Shown here in pieces: positions 7,097-58,006 of a stretch of DNA of 64,000 nucleotides; within the stretch, counting starts at the first letter, position 1, and the number at the start of each line of letters is the position of its first letter. The notes beneath the pieces are model-generated. The model saw only the letters and a program-made list of their open reading frames with translations. It did not search any database and was not told where the DNA came from. The position numbers and the translations under genes are program-made. The DNA comes from Paenibacillus borealis (lineage in GTDB: Bacteria; Bacillota; Bacilli; Paenibacillales; Paenibacillaceae): contig NZ_CP009285.1 in NCBI RefSeq assembly GCF_000758665.1, positions 5,580,001 through 5,644,000 of the forward strand, written 5' to 3'.

Positions 7097-7272
7097 GGAC
7101 TGAAATTCCGCTATTTGTGCAAATCTGGTGATTTCACGGGGCAAGCGGACTCAGATTCCGTTATGGGTGCGGTTATCCCTCATTTTGAGCTAAAAAGAGC
7201 AAGATAACGGAATCTCAGTCCGTTTCAGCCGTAAAAGAAGGCTTATTCGCGAAATAGGGGAATCTCAGTCCG
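7097..7272. repeat. Intergenic repeat family B, copy 1
   Basis: Two direct copies of GGACTNANATTCCGNTAT (from 7097 and 7147, 50 bp apart) are followed by two inverted copies ending in GAATCTCAGTCC (from 7211 and 7261, again 50 bp apart), forming a 176-bp mirror-like element. A second copy with the same spacings lies at 53745-53920. It fills the convergent space between the methyltransferase and the AIM24-family gene. Confidence 0.85.
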
Positions 7273-7293
7273 CTTCCCTCAACAGACCAAACA

Positions 7294-7390
7294 GCCGCCT
7301 CCCGGGAATCCGGTGAGGCGGCGGCTGCACATACCGGAGAACCTGGCGAGGTTGCGGCTGCATTCCAGGAAATCCGGCGAGGCGGCCAAT
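7294..7390. repeat. GC-rich hairpin and three imperfect 31-bp repeats
   Basis: A hairpin GCCGCCTC-CCGG-GAAT-CCGG-GAGGCGGC (7294-7322) has no T run and may still end the methyltransferase transcript. Units beginning GGAATCCGG, GGAGAACCTGG and GGAAATCCGG at 7305, 7336 and 7368 share GGCGGCTGCA-like tails and repeat every 31-32 bp. Together with the element at 7097-7272 this accounts for the 400-bp non-coding gap. Confidence 0.6.
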
Positions 7391-7437
7391 TGTTACGGTT
7401 GAATTTGAAATGCCTGCTTATTTCATTACCGCTCTAT

Positions 7438-8235
7438 TTACTTGCCGTCCAGCAGATTGCCCAGACCGCCGAGGATGCTGCCCTCTTCCTTGCGCCCGGA
7501 AGGTCCGGCTGCGGACAGAATCCGGTCCGCCATCCGGCTGAACGGCAGTGACTGTACCCATACCTTGCCCGGTCCGCGCAGGGTGGCGAAGAACAGGCCT
7601 TCGCCGCCGAAGAGCGCAGTTTTCACACCTTTGACCATCTCGATATTATAATCTACCGAGGAGGTCATCGCGACGAGACAGCCGGTATCGAGCTTGATGG
7701 TCTCTCCAGGCAGCAGCGTCCGCTCCAGCACATGACCTCCGGAGTGAACGAAGGAGAGTCCGTCTCCTTCGAGCTTTTGCATGATGAAGCCCTCACCGCC
7801 GAAGAAGCCCGCCCCCAGCCTGCGCTGGAATTCAATGCCGATCGACACGCCCTTGGCTGCGCAGAGGAAGGAATCCTTCTGGCAGATGATTTTACCGCCG
7901 TATTGCTGAAGATCCAGCGGGATAATTTTGCCCGGGTACGGGGCGGCAAAGGTTACACTCTTCCGTCCATAACCCCCGCTGTGCGTGAAGACGGTCATGA
8001 ACAGGCTCTCCCCGGTCAGCAGCCGTTTGCCTGCTCCCTTCAGCATGCCCATCAGCCCGCCGCCGCCCCGCGAGCTCCCGCTTCCGTCACCAAAGATCGT
8101 CTCCATCGTAATCTCCGGGTCCATCATCATGAAGCTGCCCGCTTCGGCAATCACGCTCTCCCCCGGGTCCAGCTGCACCTCAACACATTGAATTTCCTCA
8201 CCCATAATCGCATAGTCAATTTCGTGAGCACTCAT
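7438..8235 (-). CDS. TIGR00266/AIM24 family protein
   Basis: 265-residue protein of the AIM24/TIGR00266 family, beta-rich proteins rich in glycine turns whose molecular role in bacteria is not settled. Family marks: MGEEIQCVEVQLDPGESVIAEAGSFMMMD at the start, GGEGFIMQKLEGDG and GGEGLFFATLRGPGKVWVQSLPFSRMADRI. A glycine/serine-rich stretch (about residues 50-65) and a C-terminal tail EEGSILGGLGNLLDGK are visible. The ATG at 8235 has AAAGGAGG upstream. Confidence 0.82.
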   Translation of the reverse strand: MSAHEIDYAIMGEEIQCVEVQLDPGESVIAEAGSFMMMDPEITMETIFGDGSGSSRGGGGLMGMLKGAGKRLLTGESLFMTVFTHSGGYGRKSVTFAAPYPGKIIPLDLQQYGGKIICQKDSFLCAAKGVSIGIEFQRRLGAGFFGGEGFIMQKLEGDGLSFVHSGGHVLERTLLPGETIKLDTGCLVAMTSSVDYNIEMVKGVKTALFGGEGLFFATLRGPGKVWVQSLPFSRMADRILSAAGPSGRKEEGSILGGLGNLLDGK

Positions 8236-8474
8236 TCCTTACATCCTCCTTTTACATTCTGGGCATAGCATGTCCTTGAGGCCTTGCAGATTGAATGAAA
8301 TATATACGCGCGTTCCCGTCTGGCGGTTTCAGTACCCTGGGTGGCAATGTCCGAACTATAACAAAGACGAAAAAGCACCCCAATACCGAAATCCAATTAA
8401 CGGAATGATCATATGCAAAATTATTGCAGATATTACAACTTCAATTCACTAATACCGGGTATGCAGACGGATTG

Positions 8475-8594
8475 TTGTATGAAATACAAGAATTGTCTCA
8501 TTAATCGGCTTGGAGGGGGCAGAATGCTGCATTTCATACAACAATATCCGGTTTACGGTCAATATAACAGGCGGAATGTTGTATTCTGTGCAGG
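8475..8594. repeat. Intergenic repeat family E (three TTGTAT palindromes)
   Basis: Short palindromes TTGTATGAAATAC(AA) at 8475, its inverse GCATTTCATACAA at 8529-8541, and a direct copy TTGTATTCTGTGC at 8579 lie about 52 bp apart. This gap (8236-8661) separates two minus-strand genes and also holds the terminator of the YitT gene. An SD-like GGAGGGGG followed by ATG at 8524 lies within it but opens into the terminator. Confidence 0.65.
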
Positions 8595-8601
8595 ATTTCT
8601 C

Positions 8602-8640
8602 AAAAAAAAAGACCAGCCGGACTTAAGTCCGCTGACCTTT
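8602..8640 (-). terminator. Terminator of the YitT gene
   Basis: On the minus strand GGTCAGCGGACTT pairs with AAGTCCGGCTGGTC and is followed by a run of nine T residues. Confidence 0.85.
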
Positions 8641-8661
8641 AATCATCCCCGTATACGGGGT

Positions 8662-9345
8662 TCACATTGCATTGTTCATTACCGTGCCATCCTGCGGCTT
8701 GCCCAGTGCGGGCTGAATCTTCGGAGCTTTGGCCAGCTTCGGTCTGCCCAGAGAGGTTGTAAAAGTAATCACATAACCGGCCACAACTACAGCCATCACT
8801 GTGTACAACGTTTCTCTTAACGGCATATAGAAGAGGGACAATGCCAGAACAATTACATCCATCAGGATAAATACGGTTCCTACCTTAATTCCTTTCCATT
8901 CACTAATCAATAGCGACAAAATATCGTCACCGCCGCTTGCCCCGCCACCTCGCAGGACCATTCCCGCTCCTAGACCTGTCAGTACACCGGACAACAGCGC
9001 CGCGAGCGGCAAGTTATCCTGCAGATCAATAACCCATCCGGAATAGCGTTCCATAAGTCCGTAGAATACCGTGAAGGCCACTACAGAAATGAAGGTGTTC
9101 ACAACGAACGATTTTCCTTTGAAGATGATTGCAATTAAGAGCACTGGAATGTCTAAGATCAGGATCGATAGTGATGGTGAAATCCCTAGTACATATTTGC
9201 CGAGCAGCGATAATCCTACAAATCCGCCTTCGGTCAAATGGTTCTGATAATTAATGTGATAATACGTAAATGCAAGCAATAGTGTTCCGGACAAAATAAC
9301 AGCTAGTCGGAGCGGCAAACTCATGCCACTGTCTTGTTTCCTCAT
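8662..9345 (-). CDS. YitT family membrane protein
   Basis: 227 residues with about five or six hydrophobic segments. Family marks are the N-terminal helix, GGFVGLSLLGKY, and LRGGGASGGDDILSLLI around residues 130-147. YitT proteins of Firmicutes often occur in several paralogues and have no established substrate. The usual C-terminal DUF2179 cytoplasmic domain is replaced here by a short polar tail. The gene has an unusually long, folded 5' leader (9346-9604) with its own promoter and ends at a strong terminator. Confidence 0.85.
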   Translation of the reverse strand: MRKQDSGMSLPLRLAVILSGTLLLAFTYYHINYQNHLTEGGFVGLSLLGKYVLGISPSLSILILDIPVLLIAIIFKGKSFVVNTFISVVAFTVFYGLMERYSGWVIDLQDNLPLAALLSGVLTGLGAGMVLRGGGASGGDDILSLLISEWKGIKVGTVFILMDVIVLALSLFYMPLRETLYTVMAVVVAGYVITFTTSLGRPKLAKAPKIQPALGKPQDGTVMNNAM

Positions 9346-9604
9346 TACTCGGTCTCCCCTTATCGTTTATGGCGGCTAGACGTCCCACCAGCCTCTACGA
9401 CGGGTTAAACCGGAGGTGTTGCTCCTTCGCATACAATACTCCCTTCCCTCGTAGAGGTGGCGTTTGTCAATTAATAACGGTTCGCGCACATTCTACAGGG
9501 AAGCTAAGTATAAGACAGATCATAACGTTTCCAAATCGTCCTTTGGGGAATCGTCCTTCGGGGACACATGGTATCCTGATCCTTTCTTTAGTTTGATATG
9601 TTCT
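9346..9604 (-). ncRNA. Candidate structured leader RNA upstream of the YitT gene
   Basis: From a promoter at 9611-9639 the transcript would run about 258 nt before the start codon. In it, CCTCTACGA (RNA positions at 9457-9449) pairs perfectly over 9 bp with TCGTAGAGG (9400-9392), closing a domain with an imperfect GGGAG/CUCC hairpin inside. Further upstream are GGATAC/GTGTCC and CCAAA/TTTGG hairpins and two direct copies of TCCCC(G/A)AAGGACGA. It does not fit a riboswitch class I can name, though the AAGGGAGUA stretch faintly recalls the yybP-ykoY core. Confidence 0.45.
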
Positions 9605-9610
9605 GAATAG

Positions 9611-9639
9611 ATTATACCACGCGGAAGGGGCAGTCTAAA
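9611..9639 (-). promoter_or_regulatory. Sigma-A promoter of the YitT leader
   Basis: Minus strand TTTAGA (9634-9639), 17-bp spacer, TATAAT (9611-9616). Confidence 0.55.
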
Positions 9640-9662
9640 CAGTTTCCATTAAAAATAAGCAA

Positions 9663-10163
9663 TCAGCCCTGATTCCGCAACAAACGGTTGACCGTTTCCC
9701 GGCGTACACCAATTAATTGCCCGATCTCTTCCTGTGTCAGCAGGTCTGTCAGCTGTGCGCCATGTGAGTATTCGTTCAGCCAGCGGGTAAGCAGCGCCAT
9801 CCGCTCCCCGGGCGTTCCGACTGTAAGATGGTCGAGCCGTGTCTGCATAAACCGCACCTTCTCCTGGAGCAGAAGGGCGATCTCCATCACCTTCTCAGGG
9901 TCCTCCCGCAGCTCACGGTACCATTCCGCAGCGGGAATGAGCTCGACCTCGCTTTTCATCATGGCCACCGCTGTTCCATGCGCCTCCTTCGGCGAAATGA
10001 GGGAATGATGGGGAACTGTCTCACCCGGATACAGCAGGTTGAACAGCACCATGTTCCCGTTCTCATGCAGTCTTGTCACCTTAAACAGTCCGCTCTTCAC
10101 CCGGTACAGGTTCTGGCCGCCGTCGCCCTGACGAAACAAGACTTCCCCTCTGTGCAGAATCAT
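9663..10163 (-). CDS. Crp/Fnr family transcriptional regulator
   Basis: 166-residue regulator, shorter than typical Crp (about 210). The N-terminal cyclic-nucleotide-like barrel is visible (FRQGDGGQNLYRVKSGLFKVTR), then the dimer helix, and a C-terminal HTH of the Crp type (LTQEEIGQLIGVRRETVNRLLRNQG). The barrel seems shortened at its start, beginning with MILHRGEVLF. No cysteines for an Fnr iron-sulfur cluster are present. AAGGAG lies before the ATG at 10163. Ligand and targets are unknown. Confidence 0.85.
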   Translation of the reverse strand: MILHRGEVLFRQGDGGQNLYRVKSGLFKVTRLHENGNMVLFNLLYPGETVPHHSLISPKEAHGTAVAMMKSEVELIPAAEWYRELREDPEKVMEIALLLQEKVRFMQTRLDHLTVGTPGERMALLTRWLNEYSHGAQLTDLLTQEEIGQLIGVRRETVNRLLRNQG

Positions 10164-10240
10164 TTCGCATTCTCCTTTGCCTTCTCTTATATATATTTTT
10201 AATTATACCGAAATACAACAAAAAAATGGAGCGTGCAGAC

Positions 10241-10286
10241 AAAGAAACCGTCCGAAAGCAGAATGCTGCTCTGCTCCCGGACGGTT
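10241..10286 (-). terminator. Terminator of the fructose operon
   Basis: Minus strand ACCGTCCGGGAGCAG / CTGCTTTCGGACGGT stem followed by TTCTTTGT, 20 bp after the fruA stop. Confidence 0.75.
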
Positions 10287-10305
10287 CAGGATAGAAATGA
10301 TTAAG

Positions 10306-12258
10306 TTACTTAACCGCAAGCGGCTTCTTCCAGAGGCCCAGCATCAGCCCGGAAATGACGGAGCCGATCAGGACGGCCAGCAGGAACAGCAGCGCGTTGC
10401 TGGATAAGAAGGCTACGAACACGCCTCCATGCGGCGCAGGGACATTGATATTCCACAGCTGGGTAAGTCCGCCGGCTACGGCTGAACCCACGATACAGGA
10501 AGTGAGTACACGCAGCGGATCTGCAGCAGCGAAGGGAATCGCCCCTTCCGTTATGAATGACAAGCCCAGCACGTAGTTGGTCAAACCGGACTTACGTTCG
10601 GTATCCGAGAATTTATGCTTGAAGAACGTAGTGGCCAGGGCGATTGCCAGCGGAGGCACCATCCCTCCGGCCATAACAGCGGCCATCATCAGCCCGTTCG
10701 TATTCCCGCTTGAAGTGAATACGCCGATAGCAAAAGTGTATGCCGCTTTATTGAATGGACCGCCCATATCGATGGCCATCATACCGCCAAGCACCAATCC
10801 CAACAGTACTTTGTTGCCTGTACCCAGATGGTTAAGTGCATCAATCATACCTTCATTGATCCAGCTGAAGACCGGATTGAACAGATAGAACATGACTGCG
10901 CCGGTAATAAGCAAACTGAATACCGGATACAGGAGAATCGGTTTCAGACCGTCAAGGGTACGCGGCAGACCAGAGAATGCTTTGCGGAGCATAATAACGA
11001 CATAACCGGCCAGGAATCCGGCAGCCAGGCCGCCGAGGAAGCCCGCATTGGCATTCAGGGCCATGATCCCGCCGACCATACCAGGCATGAGTGCCGGGCG
11101 GTCGCCGATGCTAAGTGCGATAAAGCCGGCAAGAATCGGAATCAGGAAGTGGAACGCCCCGTCTCCGCCGCCGATCGTCTGCAGCAGCTTCACCAGCGGG
11201 TTATCGACACTGGCTACCTGCTCGATAAGGAATGATATCGCCAGCAGGATCCCGCCGCCGACTACGAACGGCAGCATATGGGATATCCCGTTCATCAGAT
11301 CCTTGTAGATCTTGCTTCCAATCGTACCGGACTTCGCTGATGCTGCACCAGCCTCGTTACGGCCGGAGCTGTGGTAGATTGGCGCATTGCCTTGGACCGC
11401 GATGCGGATCAATTCCTCTGACTTGCGGATTCCATCGCTTACCGGACGCTGAAGGACTGGCTTGCCGTTGAAGCGGTCCATCTCCACGTTCTTGTCAGCA
11501 GCGATAATAACACCGCTCGCCCGGGCAATTTCATCCGCAGTCAGCACATTCTGCGCACCTTCCGAGCCGTTGGTTTCGACACGGATGTTAACCCCCATCT
11601 CCTTGGCTTTCTTCTTCAGGGCATCCTCAGCCATAAAGGTATGAGCGATTCCAGTAGGACATGCGGTCACAGCAACAACAAAGCTCTGCGAATCCGGGTT
11701 CCCGGTGATCATGCGTGCAGGTTCTGCAGCCTGCGGTGCTGCCTTCTTGAGAGCCTCTTTCTCTGCTGCCGCCTTAGCTTCCGCTTCTGCCTTAGCTTCG
11801 GCCTCAGCTTGCTTGGCATCAAACAAGCGGGTTACTTCAGCAGGAGTCTTGGCACCCATAAGCTGTTCGATGAATTCGCTTTCAATGAGCAGCCTTGATA
11901 ACGCAGCCAGTGTGCGCAGGTGCATATTTCCAGCTCCGTCCGGCGCTGCAATCATGAAGAATAAATGCGCCGGCGCTTCATCCAGTGAGGTAAAATCGAG
12001 TCCGGCACTGCTCTTGGCGAATACAACCGTCGCTTCCTTCACGGCTTTGGTCTTGGCATGAGGCATCGCGATGCCTCCGCCGATTCCTGTGCTGGACTGG
12101 GCTTCACGGTCCAGAATCTTTTCTTTGAACAGCTTCACGTCATTAATGCGTCCGCTGGCCGCGAGGCTGGCAATCAGTTCGTCGATCGCCGCTTCCTTCG
12201 TCGTAGCCTGCAGCTCCATAATCATAGTTTCCTGTATCATCAAATCTGTAATTTTCAT
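10306..12258 (-). CDS. fruA: PTS fructose-specific EIIABC component
   Basis: 650-residue fused fructose permease that imports fructose and phosphorylates it to fructose 1-phosphate. Order: EIIA (1-150; His67 in AMPHAK), an Ala/Glu/Lys-rich linker, EIIB (about 190-290; Cys in VTACPTGIAHTF), then membrane EIIC (about 310-650). The ATG at 12258 follows GGGGAG by 9 bases; a TTG 9 bp upstream is also in frame. Last gene of fruR-fruK-fruA, 44 bp after fruK. Confidence 0.96.
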   Translation of the reverse strand: MKITDLMIQETMIMELQATTKEAAIDELIASLAASGRINDVKLFKEKILDREAQSSTGIGGGIAMPHAKTKAVKEATVVFAKSSAGLDFTSLDEAPAHLFFMIAAPDGAGNMHLRTLAALSRLLIESEFIEQLMGAKTPAEVTRLFDAKQAEAEAKAEAEAKAAAEKEALKKAAPQAAEPARMITGNPDSQSFVVAVTACPTGIAHTFMAEDALKKKAKEMGVNIRVETNGSEGAQNVLTADEIARASGVIIAADKNVEMDRFNGKPVLQRPVSDGIRKSEELIRIAVQGNAPIYHSSGRNEAGAASAKSGTIGSKIYKDLMNGISHMLPFVVGGGILLAISFLIEQVASVDNPLVKLLQTIGGGDGAFHFLIPILAGFIALSIGDRPALMPGMVGGIMALNANAGFLGGLAAGFLAGYVVIMLRKAFSGLPRTLDGLKPILLYPVFSLLITGAVMFYLFNPVFSWINEGMIDALNHLGTGNKVLLGLVLGGMMAIDMGGPFNKAAYTFAIGVFTSSGNTNGLMMAAVMAGGMVPPLAIALATTFFKHKFSDTERKSGLTNYVLGLSFITEGAIPFAAADPLRVLTSCIVGSAVAGGLTQLWNINVPAPHGGVFVAFLSSNALLFLLAVLIGSVISGLMLGLWKKPLAVK

Positions 12259-12302
12259 TAATCTCAACTCCCCGGTTTACTTAAAATCTTTCGTTATGTT
12301 GT

Positions 12303-13220
12303 TTACAGCTGGGAAATTACAACGAGCGGCCGAAGCTGTTCTATCTTCTGTCTGTCCGCCAGATCGTCAGAGAATGCCGTTGCGCTTCCTGAGGCGACGC
12401 CGGCACGGAAAGCCTCCAGCACATCTCCTCCGGTAAGCGACAAGGTCCCCACAAACCCGGCGATCATGGAATCTCCTGCGCCTACTGAATTTCTCACCCG
12501 GCCCGCAGGCGCAGCGGCATGGTAAACACCTTGCTCCGAAATAAACAATGCGCCTTCACCGGCCATCGATACCAGCACATGCCTGGCGCCGCCCTCCAGC
12601 AGCTTGCGTCCGTAGGTGATAATCTCCTCCCTGGTGCTGATCTGAGTGCCGAACAGCTCTGCCAGCTCATGATGATTCGGTTTGACAAGCAGCGGTCCGT
12701 GAGCCAGCGCGTCTGTAAGCGCCTGCCCTGTTGTATCAATTACAAACTCCGCCCCCTTCTGCTTGCATACCGCAATCAGCCTGCTATAGAAATCTCCGCC
12801 AAGCGACGGTGGAGTACTTCCTGACAGAATAACAATATCGCCCTGCTTCAGGGCATCCAGCTTGCGCAGCAGAGAAGCTGTCTCGGACTCCGCAATCTCC
12901 GGTCCGGCTCCGTTAATTTCTGTCTCTTCCCCGGCCTTAAGCTTGATATTGATCCGGGTATCATCGGCTATATGAACGAAATCACTTGCGATCTTCTCCT
13001 GGCCCAGCCACTGTTCAATATATCCCCCTGTAAAACCGCCCAGAAAACCGGTCGCGGTATTCTCTACCCCCAGCTGCTTCAGCACACGGGATACATTGAT
13101 TCCCTTCCCTCCTGGCAGCTTCATATCCCGTTTCATCCGGTTTAACCCGCCTATAGTAAACTCTTCAACCTCCACGATATAATCGACGGAAGGATTAAGC
13201 GTCACGGTATAAATCATCAT
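12303..13220 (-). CDS. fruK: 1-phosphofructokinase
   Basis: PfkB-family kinase, 305 residues, converting fructose 1-phosphate to fructose 1,6-bisphosphate. Marks: MIYTVTLNPSVDYIVEV at the start, the PfkB signature GGKGINVSRVLKQLG, KPNHHELAELFG, and the catalytic base region GAGDSMIAGF. Two adjacent ATG codons (13220 and 13217) share the ribosome site GAGGGATGA. Middle gene of the fructose operon, 37 bp after fruR. Confidence 0.96.
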   Translation of the reverse strand: MMIYTVTLNPSVDYIVEVEEFTIGGLNRMKRDMKLPGGKGINVSRVLKQLGVENTATGFLGGFTGGYIEQWLGQEKIASDFVHIADDTRINIKLKAGEETEINGAGPEIAESETASLLRKLDALKQGDIVILSGSTPPSLGGDFYSRLIAVCKQKGAEFVIDTTGQALTDALAHGPLLVKPNHHELAELFGTQISTREEIITYGRKLLEGGARHVLVSMAGEGALFISEQGVYHAAAPAGRVRNSVGAGDSMIAGFVGTLSLTGGDVLEAFRAGVASGSATAFSDDLADRQKIEQLRPLVVISQL

Positions 13221-13257
13221 TCATCCCTCATTTATCATGTTTGTCTTCTTATCACAT

Positions 13258-14019: not shown

Positions 14020-14142
14020 GCGCTTCACTCCTCGGACTTGCAGCACCTGCTGCCGGATACCTTTTATACACAATCGTCTATTTGCGTTCGGGATTATTGT
14101 TAATTAAATTCGAATAAAAACTCAATCGTGACTGATATTGAT

Positions 14143-14189
14143 CATTTATGCTCATTTATGATTGTAACAGCGTTTTCATAAACTGTAAA
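14143..14189 (-). promoter_or_regulatory. fru promoter with cre box and FruR-like direct repeats
   Basis: Minus strand TTTACA (14184-14189), 17-bp spacer, TACAAT (14161-14166). The spacer carries TGAAAACGCTGTTA (14165-14178), which fits 12 of 14 positions of the CcpA cre consensus. Directly downstream, at the expected start site, two CATTTATG repeats lie 10 bp apart (14143-14160), a likely FruR operator. The rest of the gap 14190-14418 holds no gene; it has a weak inverted pair CCGTTAT / ATAACGG at about 14251 and 14321. Confidence 0.7.
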
Positions 14190-14418
14190 GTGCTTTTTTA
14201 TTCGCTTATTTTTAAGGAAAAAGCTTATAATATCCCTTATACAGTGGCTTTTTCCGTTATCCGCTGATCGATTGGCTGCATGGATGCTCATCTCTGCTCA
14301 TTTCATCCTGAAAGGGGCAAATAACGGCTGCAGCAAATAACCACCCGAACGCCTATTTCACAAACGCGGTCAGCGACATATTTTATATTACATATGGGGA
14401 AAAGCGGGTGAACAGGAG

Positions 14419-14718: not shown

Positions 14719-14767
14719 TATATTCTTTTGCTTATTAAATGCTCATACAAGCTAATTTGCGAAATCC

Positions 14768-16759: not shown

Positions 16760-16836
16760 GCATCCTATGAAATCAAGAGCACTATTGCTCCTCATTTGCT
16801 CATTTGGTCCGTATCCGATGAAATCAAGAACACTAA
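16760..16836. repeat. Family A 51-bp repeats, left of the IS
   Basis: Two units beginning AAATCAAG at 16770 and 16821, 51 bp apart, belong to the array that resumes at 18085. The second is cut by the insertion sequence. The stretch 16596-16759 before it shows no gene. Confidence 0.85.
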
Positions 16837-16866
16837 TGGACCTCTGTCAAGAAAGTAGACGTGAAC

Positions 16867-17697
16867 CTAAGCGGTTTTCCGCTTAAATGTTGCTGCAAAC
16901 TGAACCGGAGATACGTAACCCAGTGCCCCATGGATTCGTTTACAGTTGTAGAAAAATTCAATGTATTGGTAGATGGAATCATAGGCCTGCTTCTTTGTTT
17001 TAAATCGAGTCCAGTACACAAACTCTTTTTTCAAGAGGCTGTGAAAAGATTCGATACAGGCGTTATCATAACAGTTCCCTTTGCGGCTCATACTTGCAGT
17101 CATCTGGTACTTCTCCAGGCGTCCCCGGTAGTCTGCAGAGGCATACTGCGAGCCTCGATCCGAATGGTGAATCAAGCCCTTCCCGGGGCGTTTCGCTTGG
17201 TAGGCATCGTCTAGAGCGCCCTGTACGAGGTCTGTGGTCATCCGGTCGCCCAGCCGCCAGCCTACGATCTCCCGGGTGCATAGGTCCAGCACGCTCGCCA
17301 AGTACATCCGCCCTTCCCGACAGGGAATGTAAGTAATATCTGCGACCCACGCCTGGTTTGGCTTTTCGGTTTGGAATTGCTGGTTCAGCAAGTTAGGGGC
17401 AATGGGCAAAGGATGGTTAGAGTCGGTCGTGTGTACGCGAAACCTCTTCGCGACACAGGAGCGCAGGCCCAGTTCTCTCATGTACTTTCCTACTGTGCGT
17501 TCGCTTACCTTGTACCCCTCACGCTTCAAGAGAACCGTAATTTTGGGGCTACCGTAACGACCATGCGAGTCGTGAAAATGATAGGTAATCCGCTTAAGCA
17601 GTAACGCTTTGCGGGTGGCTTGGGGGCTGGGCTTCGCTGTTCTCCATTTGTAATAACCGCTCCGTGATACCTGAAAGACGTTGCACATCTTCTCCAC
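16867..17697 (-). CDS. IS3-family transposase OrfB (DDE integrase domain)
   Basis: 276 residues from the ATG at 17697: an HTH_21-like segment (CNVFQVSRSGYYKWR) and the rve integrase core with all three catalytic acids, WVADITY, HSDRGSQYAS and CIESFHSLLKKE. In the IS3 family OrfB is normally made as an OrfAB fusion by -1 frameshifting. In the -1 frame after the A7 run, the reading passes through KELRFQFIEDHRSEFPVEKM into OrfB without a stop. Confidence 0.95.
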   Translation of the reverse strand: MEKMCNVFQVSRSGYYKWRTAKPSPQATRKALLLKRITYHFHDSHGRYGSPKITVLLKREGYKVSERTVGKYMRELGLRSCVAKRFRVHTTDSNHPLPIAPNLLNQQFQTEKPNQAWVADITYIPCREGRMYLASVLDLCTREIVGWRLGDRMTTDLVQGALDDAYQAKRPGKGLIHHSDRGSQYASADYRGRLEKYQMTASMSRKGNCYDNACIESFHSLLKKEFVYWTRFKTKKQAYDSIYQYIEFFYNCKRIHGALGYVSPVQFAATFKRKTA

Positions 17698-17735
17698 TGG
17701 GAACTCGGAGCGATGATCTTCTATAAACTGGAATC

Positions 17736-18032
17736 TCAGTTCTTTGGGTTGCTGAAGATGTGCACTGCTTTTTTTAGGATGGCCATTTCCTCCGTCAGGT
17801 CTGCCACCTGTTGGTCGCGTTCCTTCAGTTGACGTTCCAACTCTCTGACTTTGTCTGGGGTGGCTATGGGCTCACTCTGAAACGACCGGTACTTCCCCAG
17901 CCATTGGTGCAGGGTTTTGGCGGGGATGTCCAGTTCCAGGGCGAGTTCTGCCACCGTCTTGGTTTGCTCCTGGATATACTTTACGGTCTGTTTTTTATAT
18001 TCTTCATTGTAGCTTCTCCGTGTTCCACTCAT
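17736..18032 (-). CDS. IS3-family transposase OrfA
   Basis: 98 residues: an HTH (YNEEYKKQTVKYIQEQTKTVAELALELDIPAKTLHQWLGKY) and a leucine-zipper-like coiled coil (VRELERQLKERDQQVADLTEEMAILKK). A seven-A slippery run (minus strand, 17775-17769) near its end is placed for -1 frameshifting into OrfB. Confidence 0.93.
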   Translation of the reverse strand: MSGTRRSYNEEYKKQTVKYIQEQTKTVAELALELDIPAKTLHQWLGKYRSFQSEPIATPDKVRELERQLKERDQQVADLTEEMAILKKAVHIFSNPKN

Positions 18033-18084
18033 GTGGGCACCTCCTCGTTAATCTCATTATCCCTATTCTCTTAACGGGTGTCCA

Positions 18085-18750
18085 CGATTAATACTAACAG
18101 CATAATGCTCCTTAATTGGTCATTTGGTAGGCATCGGACGAAATCAAGGGCATTAATGCTCCTAATTTGCTCATTTGGTCCGAATCGGGTGAAATCAAGA
18201 GCGCTAATGCTCCTCATTTGCTCATTTGAGTAGGAATCAGCCGGAATCAAGGGCACTAACGCTCCTCATTTGCTCATTTGGTCCGCATCCGATGAAATCA
18301 AGAGCACTAATGCTCCTCATTTGCTCATTTGGTCCGCATCCGATGAAATCAAGAGCACTAATGCTCCTCATTTGCTCATTTGGTCCGCATCCGATGAAAT
18401 CAAGAGCACTAATGCTCCTCATTTGCTCATTTGAGTAGGAATCAGCCGGAATCAAGGGCACTAACGCTCCTCATTTGCTCATTTGGTCCGCATCCGATGA
18501 AATCAAGAGCACTAATGCTCCTCATTTGCTCATTTGGTCCGCATCCGATGAAATCAAGAGCACTAATGCTCCTCATTCGCTCATTTGGTCCGCATTCGAT
18601 GAAATCAAGAGCACTAATGCTCCTCATTCGCTCATTTGGTCCGCATCCGATGAAATCAAGAGCACTAATGCTCCTCATTCGCTCATTTGGTCCGCATCCG
18701 ATGAAATCAAGAGCACTAATGCTCCTCATTCGCTCATTTGGTCCGCATCC
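18085..18750. repeat. Family A 51-bp tandem repeat array
   Basis: Thirteen units with AAATCAAG-like starts at 18090, 18141, 18192, 18244, 18295, 18346, 18397, 18449, 18500, 18551, 18602, 18653 and 18704. The step is 51 bp, except 52 bp at the two variant units (GAGTAGGAATCAGCC). Each unit holds a hairpin GAGCA-CTAA-TGCTC inside a longer arm ATCAAGAGCA / TGCTCCTCAT. Because 51 is a multiple of three, both strands stay open in some frames as 17-residue peptide repeats; this is a by-product, not evidence of a gene. Confidence 0.95.
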
Positions 18751-18925
18751 GGCGGGATTAGAGGGATTTATCCCTTTGATTCTCCCGTTCCGCTTACTTT
18801 CGGCGGGATCAGAGGGATTTTTCCCTTTGATTTTTCCGTTCCGCTCACTTTCTGCGGGATCAGAGGGATTTTTCCCTTTGATTTTTCCGTTCCGCTCACT
18901 TTCTGCGGGATCAGAGGGATTACAG
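18751..18925. repeat. Family A' 51-bp repeats, joined to the family A array
   Basis: Four further units from 18751, 18802, 18853 and 18904 keep the 51-bp step but change sequence: GGCGGGATCAGAGGGATTTT and on. The hairpin is in the same place with new bases: ATCAGAGGGA-TTTT-TCCCTTTGAT. Confidence 0.9.
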
Positions 18926-37525: not shown

Positions 37526-37599
37526 TTTGCCGGGTATAGGGCCGGCTCAATACTAGAAATGAGCAATTTACAGTAACCGGTCGTTCGCTCCGGTCCTAA

Positions 37600-37783
37600 G
37601 TGTATTTTGTACAACTAAAGTGATCAAATTTTGCGCTGCGAGGGTTTTAATTGCACTTTGTACAGCTAAAAACCACCATATTTCGTAAAAGAAGACTTAC
37701 TGCTGTTTTTAATTGTACTGGATACAGTTAAACGGACAATCCGGTTTTTCACCATCTTTTTAACTGCAGGAAATACAATTAAA
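37600..37783. repeat. Intergenic repeat family C, copy 1
   Basis: Four short palindromes of the form TTAATTGNA...TACANTTAA: the right arms start at 37610, 37661, 37723 and 37774, giving spacings of 51, 62 and 51 bp. A second copy with exactly these spacings lies at 57821-58006. It fills the convergent gap between the isomerase and fucU genes. Confidence 0.85.
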
Positions 37784-44991: not shown

Positions 44992-45095
44992 CCCATCCTA
45001 AAATCAATGGTTGGGTACCGGCTGAATCCCCCCATGGAAATTAGCAGCTGCATATATGGTGATCTTTGGTCGTATCCTTTCTGGCTCTGCATCAT

Positions 45096-45285
45096 TAAAT
45101 GGATAAACGTATCTTAATTTGGATGTTTGGGAGCGTCAGAGGTAATTAGTTGGAGAAACGTCATTTAATTCCGGGCATTGTCCCTACACTGGACTATTTC
45201 CGGCCTATTAAGTGCTGTTTATCCAACTGCTGCCCGGCAAATGCGCCTCCGTTCATGATCAAGTGGAGAAAATCCAACTATTGCC
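45096..45285. repeat. Intergenic repeat family D
   Basis: Direct copies of GGA(T/G)AAACG at 45101 and 45152 (51 bp apart) are followed by inverse copies ATCCAACT at 45221 and 45272 (51 bp apart). The gap 44992-45478 between two plus-strand genes holds no gene that can be supported; a hairpin-poor stretch follows up to the nadE start. Confidence 0.75.
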
Positions 45286-49710: not shown

Positions 49711-49833
49711 TCATAACAAATGACCTGCGCGCACAAGGTTGGAAGGGACGAAAGCATATTCGATGTTTCTGGAACAGAGCTAGGGTTCCGTTTAGGCAAA
49801 AGGTAGGTTACACATTTAATTAGGGGGGTTCTC

Positions 49834-51213: not shown

Positions 51214-51239
51214 TTCATCCACATGGAGGTTATGCAGAA

Positions 51240-52025
51240 ATGAGCAGATTTTTGGAAAACAGAGTAGCTTTCGTCACCGGCGCTGCCAGCGGCATCGGTC
51301 TGGAAATCGCCCGCAAGTTCACCCATGAAGGCGCCAGGGTGGTCATTTCCGATGTACGTGAGGAGCTGGCCGTCAACGCCGCCGAAGAATTAAAGTCCCA
51401 GGGCTATGAAGCCTATGGACTTCGATGCGATGTTACCCAGGAGGCGGAATACAGCGCGGCTATTGCCAAAGCCAAAGAAGTCTACGGGAGACTGGACATA
51501 CTGGTGAATAACGCGGGGCTGCAGCATGTGTCACCGATTGAGGATTTCCCCGTGGAGAAATTCGAGTTCATGCTGAAGGTAATGCTGACCGGCGCCTTTA
51601 TCGGCATCAAGCATGCCTTCCCGATTATGAAGGAGCAGGGCTACGGCCGCATCATCAACATGGCCTCCATCAACGGAGTCATCGGCTTTGCCGGTAAAGC
51701 CGCCTATAACAGCGCCAAGCACGGCCTGATCGGACTGACCAAGGTCGCTGCGCTGGAAGGCGCTGCCCACGGCATTACCGTGAATGCGCTCTGCCCGGGT
51801 TATGTGGATACCCCGCTGGTGCGCGGACAAATGGAGGATCTCGCCCGAACCCGGAACGTGCCGCTGGAGAGCGTACTGGAGGAAGTCATCTATCCGCTCG
51901 TCCCGCAGAAACGCCTGCTGGCCGTTGAAGAAATCGCCGACTACGCCATGCTGATCGCCAGCGAGCGCCTCGGGGGCGTAACCGGCTCCACGCTGCTGAT
52001 CGACGGCGGGTATACCGCGCAGTAA
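51240..52025 (+). CDS. 3-hydroxybutyrate dehydrogenase
   Basis: 261 residues, short-chain dehydrogenase oxidising 3-hydroxybutyrate to acetoacetate with NAD+. Cofactor motif VTGAASGIGLEIA, NNAGLQHVSPIEDFPVEKF (characteristic of this enzyme group), and catalytic Ser-Tyr-Lys in MASINGVIGFAGKAAYNSAKHG. The C-terminus VTGSTLLIDGGYTAQ fits. Operon with the GntP permease. Confidence 0.92.
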   Translation: MSRFLENRVAFVTGAASGIGLEIARKFTHEGARVVISDVREELAVNAAEELKSQGYEAYGLRCDVTQEAEYSAAIAKAKEVYGRLDILVNNAGLQHVSPIEDFPVEKFEFMLKVMLTGAFIGIKHAFPIMKEQGYGRIINMASINGVIGFAGKAAYNSAKHGLIGLTKVAALEGAAHGITVNALCPGYVDTPLVRGQMEDLARTRNVPLESVLEEVIYPLVPQKRLLAVEEIADYAMLIASERLGGVTGSTLLIDGGYTAQ

Positions 52026-52076
52026 GCCAGTTTATGAATAGCCGGTAAAAGGTATACAGCAGCGATCCTGCTTATT

Positions 52077-52115
52077 AAAAAAAGCAAAGCTCCGGTCCTT
52101 GGAGCCTTGCTTTTT
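52077..52115. terminator. Bidirectional terminator
   Basis: AAAAAAAGCAAAGCTCC / GGAGCCTTGCTTTTT between the dehydrogenase and the convergent DUF4179 gene. Confidence 0.85.
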
Positions 52116-52121
52116 GATGTT

Positions 52122-53162
52122 TCAGTTATTCACCGGAAATACTTTACCGAAAAATTTGAAGGATACAATTTCCTTCTCATTGATTAAATTATCAAACGTT
52201 TTGATCGTAAGCATTTGGTTGCTCAAATAATCGCTTGTAGCTAATCCGGTAAAAATGCTGGTCGTTTCCGAGGTACCGTCTTTATAGTTTATCGTGACAG
52301 GGAAGTCGTCCAAGTATACATTGAGAGCAATTTCTTCTGATCTGCCGGCGGCTTTGTTAATCTCCTTCAATGATCCGCTGTCAATCTTCAACGTAATTGA
52401 AATAGGTGAAACGGAGATCGTTTTTAAGATTGCTTCATAACCATACATCGTAATGCCCTGATTGATTTGATAAAGGGTTGAGTACTCTTTGAAATCCAGC
52501 TTAAAAGAAGTTTTCCAGGAACCCGGAATGACGGTTTCAAAGATACCGGGTAAGGGATCTGCAGCTTGCAGATCATAAAGATTAAAGTCAATGGTTTGGC
52601 CTGCCAGGGAATTTTCGGTCATTATATTCATGACGAGGCTAAGTTTATTATCATTAGGATCTCCATCGCCGAGCACCTCAAAGCCTGTACTGTGGTAGCT
52701 TTGATTCGTCGTAGTCATGCTGAGAAAACGGTATCTCGCCGCATTTAGAACAGTGCCTTCCGGAGCTGTGAAGTCCATTAAAATATAGGTTAGATTGCTG
52801 TCACCTATCACCTGCTTAATGGTGAGCGATCCATACTCATTATCTATTGTTTGGTCTACTGCATAAGCGCCATTGGACAAATACAAAGCCTGATCGTTAT
52901 CGGCAGGTTTAAGGAATTTAATGAAGGCTTCATCCAGTCCCATATATGCTGCTGCAAAAGCAGTTGTGGTTAAACACACCATCAGTACGGCAGCAAGCAG
53001 CGCGTGTCTTACCAGCTTAACAGGAGGAAATTTTCTCTGCCCTTTTTGCTCAAAAGAATGCTCATCCGGGCCTTTCAGTAGAATGCTATGTAAAGTTTTC
53101 TCTTTTTGTTCCGCACTTGGCGTAAGAGCTTCAAAAATCTGATTAATATTCTTGTTACTCAA
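52122..53162 (-). CDS. DUF4179-type anti-sigma factor
   Basis: 346 residues: cytoplasmic N-terminus (1-50), one membrane helix (ALLAAVLMVCLTTTAFAAAYMG, about 53-74) and a large outside beta-rich domain. This is the layout of DUF4179 proteins encoded next to ECF sigma factors. Its start overlaps the sigma gene end by 8 bp, so translation is coupled. It would hold the sigma factor at the membrane until an outside signal arrives; that role is inferred. Confidence 0.85.
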   Translation of the reverse strand: MSNKNINQIFEALTPSAEQKEKTLHSILLKGPDEHSFEQKGQRKFPPVKLVRHALLAAVLMVCLTTTAFAAAYMGLDEAFIKFLKPADNDQALYLSNGAYAVDQTIDNEYGSLTIKQVIGDSNLTYILMDFTAPEGTVLNAARYRFLSMTTTNQSYHSTGFEVLGDGDPNDNKLSLVMNIMTENSLAGQTIDFNLYDLQAADPLPGIFETVIPGSWKTSFKLDFKEYSTLYQINQGITMYGYEAILKTISVSPISITLKIDSGSLKEINKAAGRSEEIALNVYLDDFPVTINYKDGTSETTSIFTGLATSDYLSNQMLTIKTFDNLINEKEIVSFKFFGKVFPVNN

Positions 53163-53658
53163 AATAATTACCTCCCAGATCTATCTTAAGGCGTTTACGG
53201 CCTCTGGATAGTTGCGTTTGGATCGTGCTTTCTTTGCGCTCTAACATCTCTGCAATTTCTTTTACCGTATACTCCTCAAAATAGTACAGATATAAAACCG
53301 TCTTGTATTTTTCGGGAAGTGACAGCAGCTTTGTAATCACCTTACCGCTTGGTTCCTCACCATTCCAAGACACAATATCCGGCAAAGTCTCTAATGCTAC
53401 CCGGCGGCTTGTCCACCAGCTTTTAAGAATATCCTTACAGTAATTGCGGGTAGTTACCGTCAGCCATGCTTTTTCATGCTCCAGGTCATTAAAAGCCATA
53501 GGAGCTTTAATCAGTTTCAGAAATACAGATTGAACAGCATCTTCAACATCAACGGGATTCTTCAAGTAAATGAAGCAAAGCCGGTAGACTAAATCTGCAC
53601 GCCGTTGATATAGTTCAGCAAATTCTTTATCCGTACGCAATAAAGAATGACATTCCAT
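53155..53658 (-). CDS. ECF RNA polymerase sigma factor
   Basis: 167 residues. Region 2 is visible as YRLCFIYLKNPVDVEDAVQSVFLKLIKAP and region 4 as LPEKYKTVLYLYYFEEYTVKEIAEMLERKESTIQTQLSRGRKRLK. The ATG at 53658 has GGAGG upstream; the frame is open further 5'. Paired with the DUF4179 protein. No obvious ECF-type promoter was seen before it. Confidence 0.92.
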   Translation of the reverse strand: MECHSLLRTDKEFAELYQRRADLVYRLCFIYLKNPVDVEDAVQSVFLKLIKAPMAFNDLEHEKAWLTVTTRNYCKDILKSWWTSRRVALETLPDIVSWNGEEPSGKVITKLLSLPEKYKTVLYLYYFEEYTVKEIAEMLERKESTIQTQLSRGRKRLKIDLGGNYFE

Positions 53659-53744
53659 TTTTTCGCCTCCTGCCTTTAACACGATTGAGGATTACAAAAT
53701 ATCTCACGATCCAATATTTTTGTATGTATTTCTGTTTATGAGGA

Positions 53745-53920
53745 GGACTGAGAATCCGTTATTTGAGTAAATCCGGCGAAATTACAGGTTAAACGGACTC
53801 AGAATCGCTTAATTGACCTGAAATGCCTTCTTTCGGGTTCAAAAGAATAAGATAACGGAATCTCAGTCCGCTTCATCCTATATTACAGGTTTTTATGGGA
53901 AATAGAGGAATCTCAGTCCG
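53745..53920. repeat. Intergenic repeat family B, copy 2
   Basis: GGACTNAGAATC at 53745 and 53795 (50 bp apart), inverse AATCTCAGTCCG copies at 53859-53870 and 53909-53920 (50 bp apart). Spacings 50-64-50 match copy 1 at 7097-7272 exactly, while the sequence between the arms is only partly alike. The non-coding stretch 53659-54160 also holds a terminator and an 11-bp tandem repeat. Confidence 0.85.
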
Positions 53921-53970
53921 CTTCAGGATAATGGATCTGGGGAGGGGAGGCTGGTCTGGCAGTTTTCATC

Positions 53971-54006
53971 AAAAATAAGCAAAGCCCCAGTGATAGGAGC
54001 TTTGCC
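53971..54006 (-). terminator. Terminator of the scoA-scoB-thiolase operon
   Basis: Minus strand GGCAAAGCTCCT / GGGGCTTTGC stem followed by TTATTTTT. Confidence 0.7.
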
Positions 54007-54084
54007 TGCAGTAGTCTTGTTCCATATTTCACAAACCTTCTGATCATCCTGGCAAGTATGCCACCTTCGCGGGTGTCAGCAGCT

Positions 54085-54172
54085 TAGATCCGCTCTAGAT
54101 CTGTTCTAGATCTGTTCTAGATCTGTTCTATATCTGTTCCAGCTCAGCTCTAGATCCGCCCTAGATCCGCTC
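54085..54172. repeat. 11-bp tandem repeat at the thiolase 3' end
   Basis: Eight in-step units of TAGATCTGTTC-type at 54085, 54096, 54107, 54118, 54129, 54140 (degenerate), 54151 and 54162. The last unit is part of the final codons and stop of the thiolase gene, so the array appears to have grown from the gene end. Confidence 0.85.
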
Positions 54173-55351
54173 AATAATCGTCGTTACGCCATGCCCTCCG
54201 CCGATGCAGAGCGTGGCAAGTCCGGTGCGGGCACCGCGCTGCTTCAGTGCATGTACCAGTGTTACGAGAATTCTTGCCCCGCTCGCACCGATCGGATGAC
54301 CCAGGGCGATGGCCCCGCCGTTCACATTGACCTTCTCCTCCGGGAAGTCCAGGGCCTGGCCTACCGCCAGCATCTGCGCCGCAAAGGCCTCGTTAGCCTC
54401 GATGAGATCGATGTCGCCGATCGTCAGGCCGCCACGCTGCAGCGCCTTCTTCGTTGCCGGAACCGGACCCATCCCCATGATGGAGGGATCCACACCGCCG
54501 GACGCGTAGGACAGGATGCGCGCAAGCGGCTTCAGCCCAAGCGCAGCAGCTTTCTCCGCCGACATAATGACCAGCGCCGCAGCGCCGTCATTAATGCCCG
54601 AGGCGTTCCCGGCAGTCACACTGCCGTCCTGCTTAAAGGCCGGGCGGAGAGCTGCCAGCTTCCCGGCGGTCGTTCCTTTCCGCGGGAACTCATCGGTATC
54701 GAAGATAATGGCCTCGCCTTTTCGCTGCGGAATGATGACAGGTACGATTTCTTCCTTGAAATGGCCTGCTTCAATGGCGCGCACGGCCTTCTCCTGGCTG
54801 GACGCCGCCAGGGCATCCTGCATTTCCCGGCTGATCCCGAATTGTTCGGAGACATTTTCCGCCGTGATGCCCATATGGTAATGGTTGAATGCGCAGGTCA
54901 ACCCGTCATTCACCATCGTATCGATCAGTGTCCCGTTGCCCATGCGGTAGCCGTAGCGGGCCTGATCCAGCACATAAGGCGCCTTCGACATATTCTCCAT
55001 CCCGCCGGCTACAACAATCTCGCTGTCTCCTGCCATAATACTCTGCGCAGCCAGATGGACCGCCTTCATGCCCGAACCGCACACCTTGTTAATGGTCAAG
55101 CTGGATGCCTCAACCGGAATGCCCGCCTTAACCGCCGCCTGCCGCGCCGGATTCTGGCCCAGCCCGCCCTGAAGCACGTTGCCCATAATCACTTCGTCAA
55201 CCTGGTCCGGTGTGACGCCCGCCCGCCGCAGCGCCTCCTTGATGACCAGCGCCCCCAAATCTACAGCGGAAATCCCGGCCAGACTTCCGCCAAAGGTGCC
55301 GAGTGCCGTCCGCACTGCGCTGACAATGACAATTTCTTTGGCTGTATTCAT
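54161..55351 (-). CDS. Acetyl-CoA C-acetyltransferase (thiolase)
   Basis: 396 residues; splits acetoacetyl-CoA into two acetyl-CoA (degradative direction here). Active-site Cys in [18 protein letters not shown] (about residue 88), His in [17 protein letters not shown] and Cys in [14 protein letters not shown] overlaps the scoB stop by four bases. Last gene of scoA-scoB-thiolase. Confidence 0.96.
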
Positions 55352-56019
55352 AACAACACCTCATCCGAAGGGATATTCCGCATGGGAGACAGATCCGCAG
55401 AAACCGTAAACGCTGCACCCGTTTTGTTTGTAACCGTTTCCAATTCTATGCCTGGTGCCAGCTCCTCAAGCACCAGTCCCTGCGGGGTGAACCTGAACAC
55501 CGCCAGCTCCGTGATAATCATCGCTACTGCGCCGCGCGCAGTAAGCGGCAGGCTGCAGTCGCTCACGATTTTGGGGGCACCGTTCTTGGAGGTATGCTCC
55601 ATGGCGACAATAACTTTTCTTGCACCTGTGACCAGATCCATGGCGCCGCCCATGCCGGGAACCATTTTGCCGGGAACCATCCAGTTGGCCAGATTACCGT
55701 GCGCATCCACTTCAAGTCCGCCAAGAATCGTAACATCCACATGTCCGCCGCGGATAAGCGCAAAGGAAGTGGCACTGTCGAAGAAGGAACCCCCGGGCAG
55801 AATGTTAGCCGGTTTGCCTCCTGCATTGACCAGATCGGGAATGATCGTATCCTGCACCGGTCCAAGCCCGATATAGCCGTTCTCGGATTGCAGAATAATG
55901 TTGATGCCTGCCGGCAGATAATTTGGGATCAGCGTCGGCAGCCCGATGCCCAGATTGACTACATCCCCGTCATGCAGTTCAACCGCCGCCCTGCGTGCAA
56001 TCAGCTCTTTCGTATCCAT
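55348..56019 (-). CDS. scoB: 3-oxoacid CoA-transferase subunit B
   Basis: 223 residues; with ScoA moves CoA from succinyl-CoA or acetyl-CoA to acetoacetate. Catalytic Glu in [12 protein letters not shown] (about residue 46) and [27 protein letters not shown]. Starts one base after the scoA stop. Confidence 0.94.
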
Positions 56020-56020
56020 G

Positions 56021-56680
56021 TTATTCGCTCTCCTTATAGCAGATGATTTTATCGATCAGAACACCAGGCGTAACTACAATATTAGGGTCAAGCTCCCCGG
56101 TTTCCACAATTTCATCCACCTGAACAATGACAAGATCGGCGGCCAGTGCCATCAGCGGATTGAAATTGCGCGCCGAATTGCGGTACACCAGATTGCCGGC
56201 CTTATCCGCCTTGTGCGCTTTCAGCAGGGCAACGTCAGCCCGCAGCGGCAGCTCCACCAGATATTCTCTGCCCTCAATTGTCAGCGTCTGCTTATTGTCG
56301 GCTACCATTGTCCCTGTTCCTGTAGGCGTCAGAATGCCGCCGAGTCCTGCACCGCCTGCCCGCACCCGCTCCGCGAGCGTTCCCTGCGGCACCAGCTCCA
56401 CCGCCAGCTCCCCGGCGAGCATCTGTCTGCCCGTCTCCGGATTGGTGCCGATATGCGAAGCGATGACCTTCTTCAGCCGCCGGCCCAAGACCAGCGGGCC
56501 TACTCCTGTATCCATCAGAGCCGTGTCGCTGGAGATCAGCGTAATGTCTTTGATGTCCCGCTCAACCAGAATACCCACCAGTGCATCAGGTGCGCCGGTT
56601 CCCATGAAACCGCCAACCATAATGGTCATGCCGTCATGAAACAGTCCGCCTATTTCTTCAAGCGTCGTTACTTTCCCCAC
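56021..56680 (-). CDS. scoA: 3-oxoacid CoA-transferase subunit A
   Basis: 219 residues. GTG start at 56680 chosen because AGGAGGGG lies 6 bases upstream and the family N-terminus ([33 protein letters not shown]) follows; the frame is open further 5'. [25 protein letters not shown] is the conserved CoA-transferase I segment. First gene of the operon, divergent from a LysR regulator. Confidence 0.93.
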
Positions 56681-56773
56681 ACCAAACCCCTCCTGTTTTT
56701 TGCTGCAGCCCATTGACAAATGTGATGCGGATGACTTTATGTATATAGTGTACAACGCGCTTTTTGGGGGGTA

Positions 56774-56799
56774 AAATTCAGACATCGCATGCGAACCAT
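56774..56799. promoter_or_regulatory. Palindrome in the scoA-LysR divergent region
   Basis: TCGCATGCGA is a perfect 10-bp palindrome flanked by TTCA and TGAA at a distance that makes a larger imperfect dyad; a likely LysR-type operator between scoA and the regulator gene. Confidence 0.5.
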
Positions 56800-56831
56800 G
56801 AAAATATATCATAGATTGGAGGCGCTTACTT

Positions 56832-57719
56832 TTGGATGTGCGGAACCTGAAATACGTGCTTGAGGTAGCCAATTTGCACAACATCACCAAGGCGGCGGAG
56901 AAGCTTCACCTGACTCAGCCCACCCTCAGCAAAATGGTCAAGAGCCTGGAGGACGAGCTTGGCGTCATCTTGTTTGACCGCTCGGGCAAATACGTCAGGC
57001 TGACCGATGCCGGCTCAGCAGCGATGGAACAGATCCGGCTGATTATTGCGGCAGTGGACAATCTGCATATGACGCTGGATGACATCAGCAACCTCAAGAC
57101 CGGCACGATCAAGATTGGACTTCCTCCGGTGATCAGCTCCGTATTCGTTCCAAAAGTCGTGACTCCGTTCCAAAAAAAATACCCCAACATCTCCTTCGAG
57201 CTCATTGAACAGGGCTCCAAGAATGTGGAGAATATGGTGCTGGAGGGCAGTATCGATCTGGGAGCAGTTCTGCTTCCTGTCCGGGAGGGCAGCTTCGGAA
57301 TCAAGCCTTTTGTCCGTGAGAATCTGGCAATTGTTGTCCATAAATCGCATCCGCTGGCGGCACGCACAGAGGCTTCCCTGACCGATCTCCGCGAAGAACC
57401 GCTGATTCTGTTCGCCAAAGGCTTCGCCATGCGCCAGCATATTATTGAAGCCTGCGTCAGCGCAGGGTTTGAAGCCAATATTGCTTATGAGAGCGCTCAA
57501 TGGGATCTGCTGGTTGAGCTGGTATCCGCTAATCTGGGCATCGCTTTTCTGCCTGAGCCGCTCTGTGAGAAGGTATCCAACCAGAATGTGCGCATTCTGC
57601 CGCTGCGGAATCCGTCCATTCCGTGGAACGTCGTGCTGATCTGGAACAAGGAGCGTTACATCAGTAAATGCATGCGGGAATTCATCCGCTTCCTGGAGGA
57701 TCATTCTTTGGTTGTATAG
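56832..57719 (+). CDS. LysR family regulator
   Basis: 295 residues with a TTG start (GGAGG 9 bases upstream): [50 protein letters not shown] is the LysR HTH, followed by the two-lobe effector domain. Divergent from scoA, so probably the activator of the CoA-transferase operon and perhaps of the GntP-dehydrogenase operon. Effector likely acetoacetate or 3-hydroxybutyrate, by inference. Confidence 0.9.
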
Positions 57720-57820
57720 CACAATAAATCTATATAGCTTGAACTGGTAATCTTTCTGATTAGTCCCGGGCTCACCGCTTGGACAGCTGGCTGGGCCGGG
57801 ATTCGCACCGTCTAAGCTAT

Positions 57821-58006
57821 AACTGTATTTTGTGCAACTAAAATGGGCGATTATTGCGCTGCGAGGGTTTTAATTGCACTTTCTACAGTTAAAAATCCAC
57901 ATATTTTGTAAAAGGGGGCTCACCGCTATTTTTAATTGTACAGAATACAATTAACCTGGAAAATCCGGAATTCTGCCATCTTTTAATTACAGAAAATACA
58001 ATTAAA
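57821..58006. repeat. Intergenic repeat family C, copy 2
   Basis: Right arms at 57833, 57884, 57946 and 57997, spacings 51-62-51 as in copy 1 (37600-37783). The third unit is a perfect 9-bp hairpin TTAATTGTA-CAGAA-TACAATTAA (57932-57954). It fills the convergent gap between the LysR and rhamnosidase genes. Confidence 0.88.

Follow-up and report, generated by a model that had tools for sequence, protein, structure and literature searches.

Intergenic palindromic elements with 50-52 bp spacing in Paenibacillus borealis, and the agreement of three families with the direction of replication

We consider several families of intergenic repeats, here called A/A', B, C, D and E, in a stretch of 64,000 nucleotides of the Paenibacillus borealis chromosome (the window, positions 5580001-5644000 of contig NZ_CP009285.1). 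The families share one plan, in which palindromic sites are set 50-52 bp apart, and each family is dispersed through the genome to which the window belongs (the home genome), beyond the loci that a preliminary description, made from the letters of the window, had noted. Three of the families, A, B and D, follow the replication fork: 61 of their 63 loci in the home genome share one orientation relative to it when one orientation is counted per locus. The C and E families serve as a built-in control, as their loci face either way (9/16 for C and 15/30 for E, together 24/46; p 2e-8 for the difference from A, B and D). Since C and E share the plan without the polarity, neither the plan nor the gaps in which the elements lie impose it. 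We favor, at a probability of about 0.45, the reading that these are DNA-protein assembly sites, maintained by the host, with a direction that is relevant to the fork or to DNA just replicated. Repeats scattered through bacterial genomes are commonly regarded as debris of mobile elements. In the present case, three families match the fork in the home genome with very few exceptions, two of these do so in a set of relatives as well, and one occupies conserved positions with a spacing that is exact to the base. The question raised is "does a host protein read the direction of the fork, or does a mobile system insert one way at forks?", and either answer would be of wide interest.

The home genome is a single contig of 8,156,808 bp. 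The genes dnaA, dnaN, recF and gyrB begin at base 88, and the GC skew is positive in all 12 sampled stretches up to 4.32 Mb and negative in all 8 from 4.73 Mb; the origin is therefore put at base 1 and the terminus somewhere in the interval 4.32-4.73 Mb, with 4.5 Mb used for counting. With these arms, the matches of A, B and D are on the minus strand on the right arm and on the plus strand on the left arm, and the strand of the element that is on top in the window serves as the leading-strand template. Counted per locus, the agreement with the fork is 26/27 for B, 18/19 for D and 17/17 for A. Among the matches listed it is 71/73 for A, 27/28 for B (leaving aside three opposite-strand self matches; one locus, 4542040, falls in the stretch of uncertain terminus), 20/21 for D and 20/40 for E. 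Most genes also run with the fork (213 of the 274 sampled are leading), and the 61 of 63 exceeds this rate of gene co-orientation (p 2e-5). Loci between two head-on genes agree with the fork as well, 5 of 6 at home and 6 of 6 in the relatives (11/12). As for base composition, the GC skew of the consensus top strand is opposite to that of the surroundings in B and D, of the same sign in A and absent in A'; of the 200 octamers with the strongest skew in the sample, none occurs in the A, A' or D consensus, and that of B has three hits, on the leading strand. This polarity goes beyond what the preliminary description had noticed.

The same orientation is seen in other members of the genus. B is found in 25 of 100 genus genomes, home included, and at 59 of 60 fetched B loci from ten relatives the orientation agrees with the local GC skew; the 60 are the stronger loci listed, of which nine relatives with a single main chromosome supply 57 and the relative G040 three. 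A single two-arc split per genome fits all 144 of the A and stronger B loci in the nine relatives, and because the splits were fitted to those same 144 loci this is a matter of consistency, not an independent test. In one stretch of the relative G047 (L292) the genes are mostly anti-fork and the element matches the sign of the skew, which is only +0.010 there.

The anatomy of the elements is as follows. B, C, D and E are about 190-210 bp long and contain four sites of about 25 bp, ordered as two sites and then two inverted, with a spacing of 50-52 bp within each pair and few insertions or deletions among aligned copies. E, with a spacing of about 51-52-52, is a four-site element too, which the preliminary description had not recognized. 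The families lie where the preliminary description had put them (Table 1), and its reading of C as 51-62-51 is reproduced. Its 50-64-50 for B keeps the outer 50s with a centre that is 62 by our centre-to-centre measure, and its 51-69-51 for D keeps the outer 51s with a centre of 58 between the matched inverted 15-mers, a value that depends on where the site is measured. Across 111 copies of B the spacing is exact in most: 50 in 80 of 86 measurable copies, 66 (as a motif offset) in 98 of 106 and 50 in 98 of 105. The families, described as unlike in sequence, appear not to be wholly unlike, as the sites of A and B can be aligned by eye.

Table 1. Coordinates in the window of the repeat elements and of the insertion sequence that interrupts the A array
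Feature	Position	Strand	Remarks
B element, copy 1	7090..7277	+	cores 7097-7109, 7147-7159, 7209-7221, 7259-7271; first two in the same direction, last two inverted
E element	about 8420..8600	+	sites at about 8420-8441, 8470-8494, 8523-8545 (inverted), 8574-8598
A array, left fragment	16762..16836	+	51-bp units, truncated by the insertion sequence
IS3-family insertion sequence	16837..18102	-	within an A palindrome, with a 3-bp direct repeat on either side; transposase at 16867-17697; ends read by eye
A array, main block	18103..18748	+	51-bp units
A' block	18749..18925	+	51-bp units after the A block
C element, copy 1	37597..37783	+	four palindromic sites of 25-26 bp, 51-62-51
D element	45094..45285	+	matched 15-mers 45101-45115, 45152-45166; inverted 45210-45224, 45261-45275
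B element, copy 2	53739..53925	+	cores 53745-53757, 53795-53807, 53857-53869, 53907-53919
C element, copy 2	57820..58006	+	51-62-51; within a stretch aligned with P. phytohabitans

The spacing can also be seen without reference to any one family. When 156 intergenic gaps (89 kb) from 19 sampled stretches and the window are compared with themselves, the commonest self-match lag is 51 bp, in 11 gaps against 1.3 expected, and the lags of 50-52 bp together amount to 23 against 4.5 expected. The genome-wide excess of this spacing, whose absence would have told against a common plan, is thus present in the sampled gaps; among the 23 listed gaps that show a lag between 49 and 53, the window supplies 6. 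Dispersed repeats occur in 53 of 309 sampled gaps, and pairs of matching gaps agree with the replication polarity by 311 to 80. Sampling was sparser on the left arm of the home chromosome. Among the matches listed there are at least 31 copies of B, 22 of C, 21 of D, 73 of A and 40 of E, and extrapolation from about 17 copies of E in 844 kb gives about 160 per genome.

Constraint was measured for B. At the 17 B loci with both flanks common to the home genome and G040, the element is 0.904 identical, more than third codon positions (0.855) or the rest of the intergenic DNA (about 0.81); the third-codon figure comes from 17 pairs with 35 flanking genes kept and 10 dropped for poor alignment. The element is more conserved than the third positions of its own neighbours in 12 of the 17 pairs. 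Gaps in the alignment amount to 69 bases in 3,181 for the element and to 3,146 in about 17,800 for the other intergenic DNA. Inside the element, the sites are 0.951 and the spacers 0.867 identical (18 home-G040 pairs, one of them with a single flank); copies of B within the home genome, compared pairwise, give 0.82 for sites and 0.58 for spacers. Orthologous copies are present in two to seven relatives at four home loci (L002, L003, L006, L022), with coding flanks 75-97% identical; at L006 the first site is missing from the home copy. In the window, the first copy of B has orthologues in G040 and G058, and the second aligns at the same place in Paenibacillus phytohabitans with 89% identity, the nearest named relative as judged from one protein, a rhamnosidase that is 92% identical. 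A structured RNA was considered for B and rejected, as RNAalifold gives no covariation over the 111 copies (0 for the top strand, -1.7 for the bottom strand) and there are no compensatory helix changes. Conservation focused on the sites, rigid spacing and the lack of RNA covariation in B together point to several DNA sites under constraint, along with the spacing that separates them. In this form, as multi-site DNA binding, the common machine suggested in the preliminary description is supported.

The elements prefer the gaps beyond gene 3' ends. Genome-wide, 26 of the 63 A, B and D loci are in convergent gaps and one is in a divergent gap, against 19 and 27 of 124 background gaps longer than 150 bp. 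In the window, by the simple gene calls made in this analysis, three elements (B at 7.1 kb and both copies of C) are in convergent gaps, in place of the four claimed.

Combining the exact spacing, the greater conservation of sites than of spacers and the absence of RNA covariation in B, we infer a folded complex bound to the element. In such a complex, copies of a dimeric DNA-binding protein would occupy the four sites of B, C, D and E, or the many sites of A, each of about 25 bp and held near five helical turns apart, and would build one folded assembly on the double-stranded, non-coding element. In A, B and D, the families with polarity, the assembly would have a direction, which selection would keep matched to the passing fork. 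The constraint on B in place, the exact spacing and the persistence of copies in relatives speak for this reading. The assembly would act in the gaps beyond gene 3' ends, most likely in a directional role linked to the fork or to DNA just replicated; pausing in one direction, loading and the marking of boundaries are examples. A bolder form of this proposal, which we put forward as rather doubtful, is that the elements are chromosome-wide polar DNA stations, with one plan and several binding specificities, that would read or enforce the direction of replication outside the terminus region; we propose that such stations would act through directional fork pausing, the loading of motor or clamp-linked factors, or the marking of newly copied DNA.

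Several observations weigh against a host-maintained assembly. The bound protein is a putative one, deduced from the anatomy of the sites, and a polarity once set by insertion would persist unless the arms were inverted internally. C and E have the same plan and no polarity, and the presence of B in only a quarter of the genus genomes makes any task dispensable in the genus. In 5 of the 17 orthologous pairs the conservation of B does not exceed that of third codon positions. There are exceptions to the polarity: among the home matches, A at 1344756 and 4275084 (both weak), B at 4809760 and D at 3496284; among the loci, B at L025, D at L065, and L348 in the relative G080. Strand was assigned by BLAST on elements that are nearly inverted repeats, although random strand calls could not yield the counts of A and B. 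In the nine relatives, 62 of 70 listed rows for B agree with the two-arc split; the other 8 are all at or below 55 bits, and in four cases a stronger copy overlaps the match on the opposite strand, which the inverted design allows. D is less clean in the relatives, with agreement in 53/58 rows at 100 bits or more, 85/97 at or above about 72 bits and 24/36 below that, without the rows that lie less than 150 kb from a fitted break. Loosely placed breaks or matches to half an element may account for part of the D misfits, several of which, in the relative G045, lie between loci that bound a break. Finally, the loci of the relatives are partly orthologous, and so are not all independent trials. 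Because A and B carry the argument, the weaker result for D in relatives does not change our odds.

The close rival is insertion coupled to the fork, where transposon ends or miniature elements are inserted one way at forks by a Tn7/TnsE-like, clamp-binding or single-strand transposition machine. The polarity would then be an insertion scar and the copies old, with some later put to use, and we regard this as a serious possibility that falls short of an even chance; the two explanations are not mutually exclusive. In its favor, the families are dispersed, multiple and extragenic, and two sites per end inverted about a centre resemble the paired transposase-binding ends of transposons. A relation between transposon orientation and the clamp was reportedly treated by Gomez et al. 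in 2014. Machines that give such a bias are known, since the orientation of insertion follows replication for Tn7 in its TnsE pathway and for IS200/IS605, as stated in the accessible text of PMC5371812. The present elements are like them in orientation and unlike them in having no genes inside, in the constraint on orthologous B copies in place, and in that no mobiliser was found, the search being for Y1 transposases only: the home genome has no match to Y1_Tnp (PF01797), with Tn7-like and other DDE partners not searched for. The lone comparison with an empty site, for E, finds the element absent at one place in most aligned relatives, with flanks too diverged to show a target duplication. Further against mobility, exact words of B, E, A' and D have no occurrence in viral contigs, those of B none in phages or plasmids, and those of E none in plasmids. 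In the other direction, certain long copies of B with common flanks suggest a later spread. These copies, in the relatives G047 and G052 (L285-L299), carry about 45 bp extra on the left and about 95 bp extra on the right. A coding role for their small bottom-strand reading frame was discarded, as the frame is broken in most of 13 translated copies.

Turning from insertion to transcription, it is improbable that the elements are barriers to head-on transcription, that is, hairpin arrays or rut-like stretches that stop anti-fork transcripts. Their position beyond gene 3' ends, their avoidance of divergent gaps and the top strand, which has the sense of head-on transcripts, would suit such a role. 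The lack of covariation in B speaks against it, as do the G.T and A.C pairs, which are 32 to 35 in the A palindromes and 30 to 13 in those of A'. A' alone leans to the top strand, and strand-specific hairpins were rejected since A and A' together show no consistent preference. The intrinsic-terminator pattern is at chance (13 against 11.7) over 7.0-19.2 kb of the window, and no Rfam family matches the window at gathering scores. The earlier suggestion of a 3'-end RNA system is not supported, on the same two grounds, the absence of covariation in B and of a strand preference in A/A'. As a mark of fork trouble, tandem repeats beside the elements were counted by length class of gap, with no clear excess (11/26 against 12/35, 3/19 against 7/61, 0/7 against 9/88).

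A descent from REP/BIME-like repeats of an extinct RAYT system is quite improbable. REP and BIME repeats are extragenic imperfect palindromes in mosaic tandem arrays, according to the available part of PMC2817692, and REPs serve as targets of insertion sequences other than the one seen here (PMC1525189, likewise available in part). The present families are likewise extragenic imperfect palindromes in many copies, with tandem mosaic arrays, and an insertion sequence enters their palindromes. They differ in the fixed four-site plan and in the near-absolute polarity of A, B and D at home, neither of which appears in the part of the REP description at hand (PMC2817692). Of the regular spacing and alternating orientation of REPs, the elements show the regular spacing, with an orientation that is paired (B, C, D, E) or tandem (A). 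The Y1 search that was empty at home was positive in 5 of 14 control genomes, the relatives being outside it, so the RAYT version of the common machine is not borne out for the home genome. An ordinary by-product, with orientation following neighbouring genes or base skew, could draw on the leading majority of genes and the skew sign of A and is hardly credible, being already refuted, unless the counts are flawed, by the loci between head-on genes, the excess over gene co-orientation, the randomness of C and E, the opposite skew of B and D and the missing octamers.

We compare the elements with some other systems. Tus/Ter and RTP form multi-site polar DNA-protein complexes, and the Ter sites cluster near the terminus; the present elements are spread over both arms. 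The A arrays resemble the plasmid centromere sopC, with its tandem units of about 43 bp that each contain a palindromic site, and differ from it in occupying many chromosomal loci. AIMS and KOPS, from what can be seen of PMC5993296, are 8-bp words, polar to replication, that are frequent and rise toward the terminus; only the polarity is shared, the present elements being sparser composites or arrays whose A, A' and D consensus lacks the most skewed octamers. The Bordetella repeat element BRE is, like ours, a dispersed intergenic repeat, described in the accessible portion of PMC3110155 as not co-oriented with the fork, unlike A, B and D. No published description of the present elements was found in the open literature, which omits most subscription papers.

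At 16762-18921, the A/A' region is a run of 51-bp units in tandem, interrupted by an insertion sequence of the IS3 family. In 9 of 10 arrays laid out, the A block is followed by the A' block, always in that order, and the remaining array has A units only. The insertion sequence has 8 matches at home, 7 of them full copies and the eighth partial; each of the 7 full copies (L417-L423) interrupts a palindrome of A or A', some in one orientation and some in the other, and a direct repeat of 3 bp is read by eye in the loop, a pattern of palindrome-specific targeting.

Some minor observations concern the neighbourhood of the elements. Four A arrays of the home genome (1086939-1089000, 1097379-1100180, 2146973-2148000 and 2983116-2983602) have a B element no more than about 2 kb away. 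By an eye count of the matches listed, A loci seem denser toward the origin and B loci sparser there. Five of the long B copies in G047 and G052 have on their left a common stretch that contains a D-like site, as would be expected if composite units had spread. In the window, three imperfect 29-nt repeats with spacings of 33 and 31 occupy 7301-7393, directly beside the first B element, and short repeats of the type CTAGATCTGTT are found at 54085-54170, close to the second.

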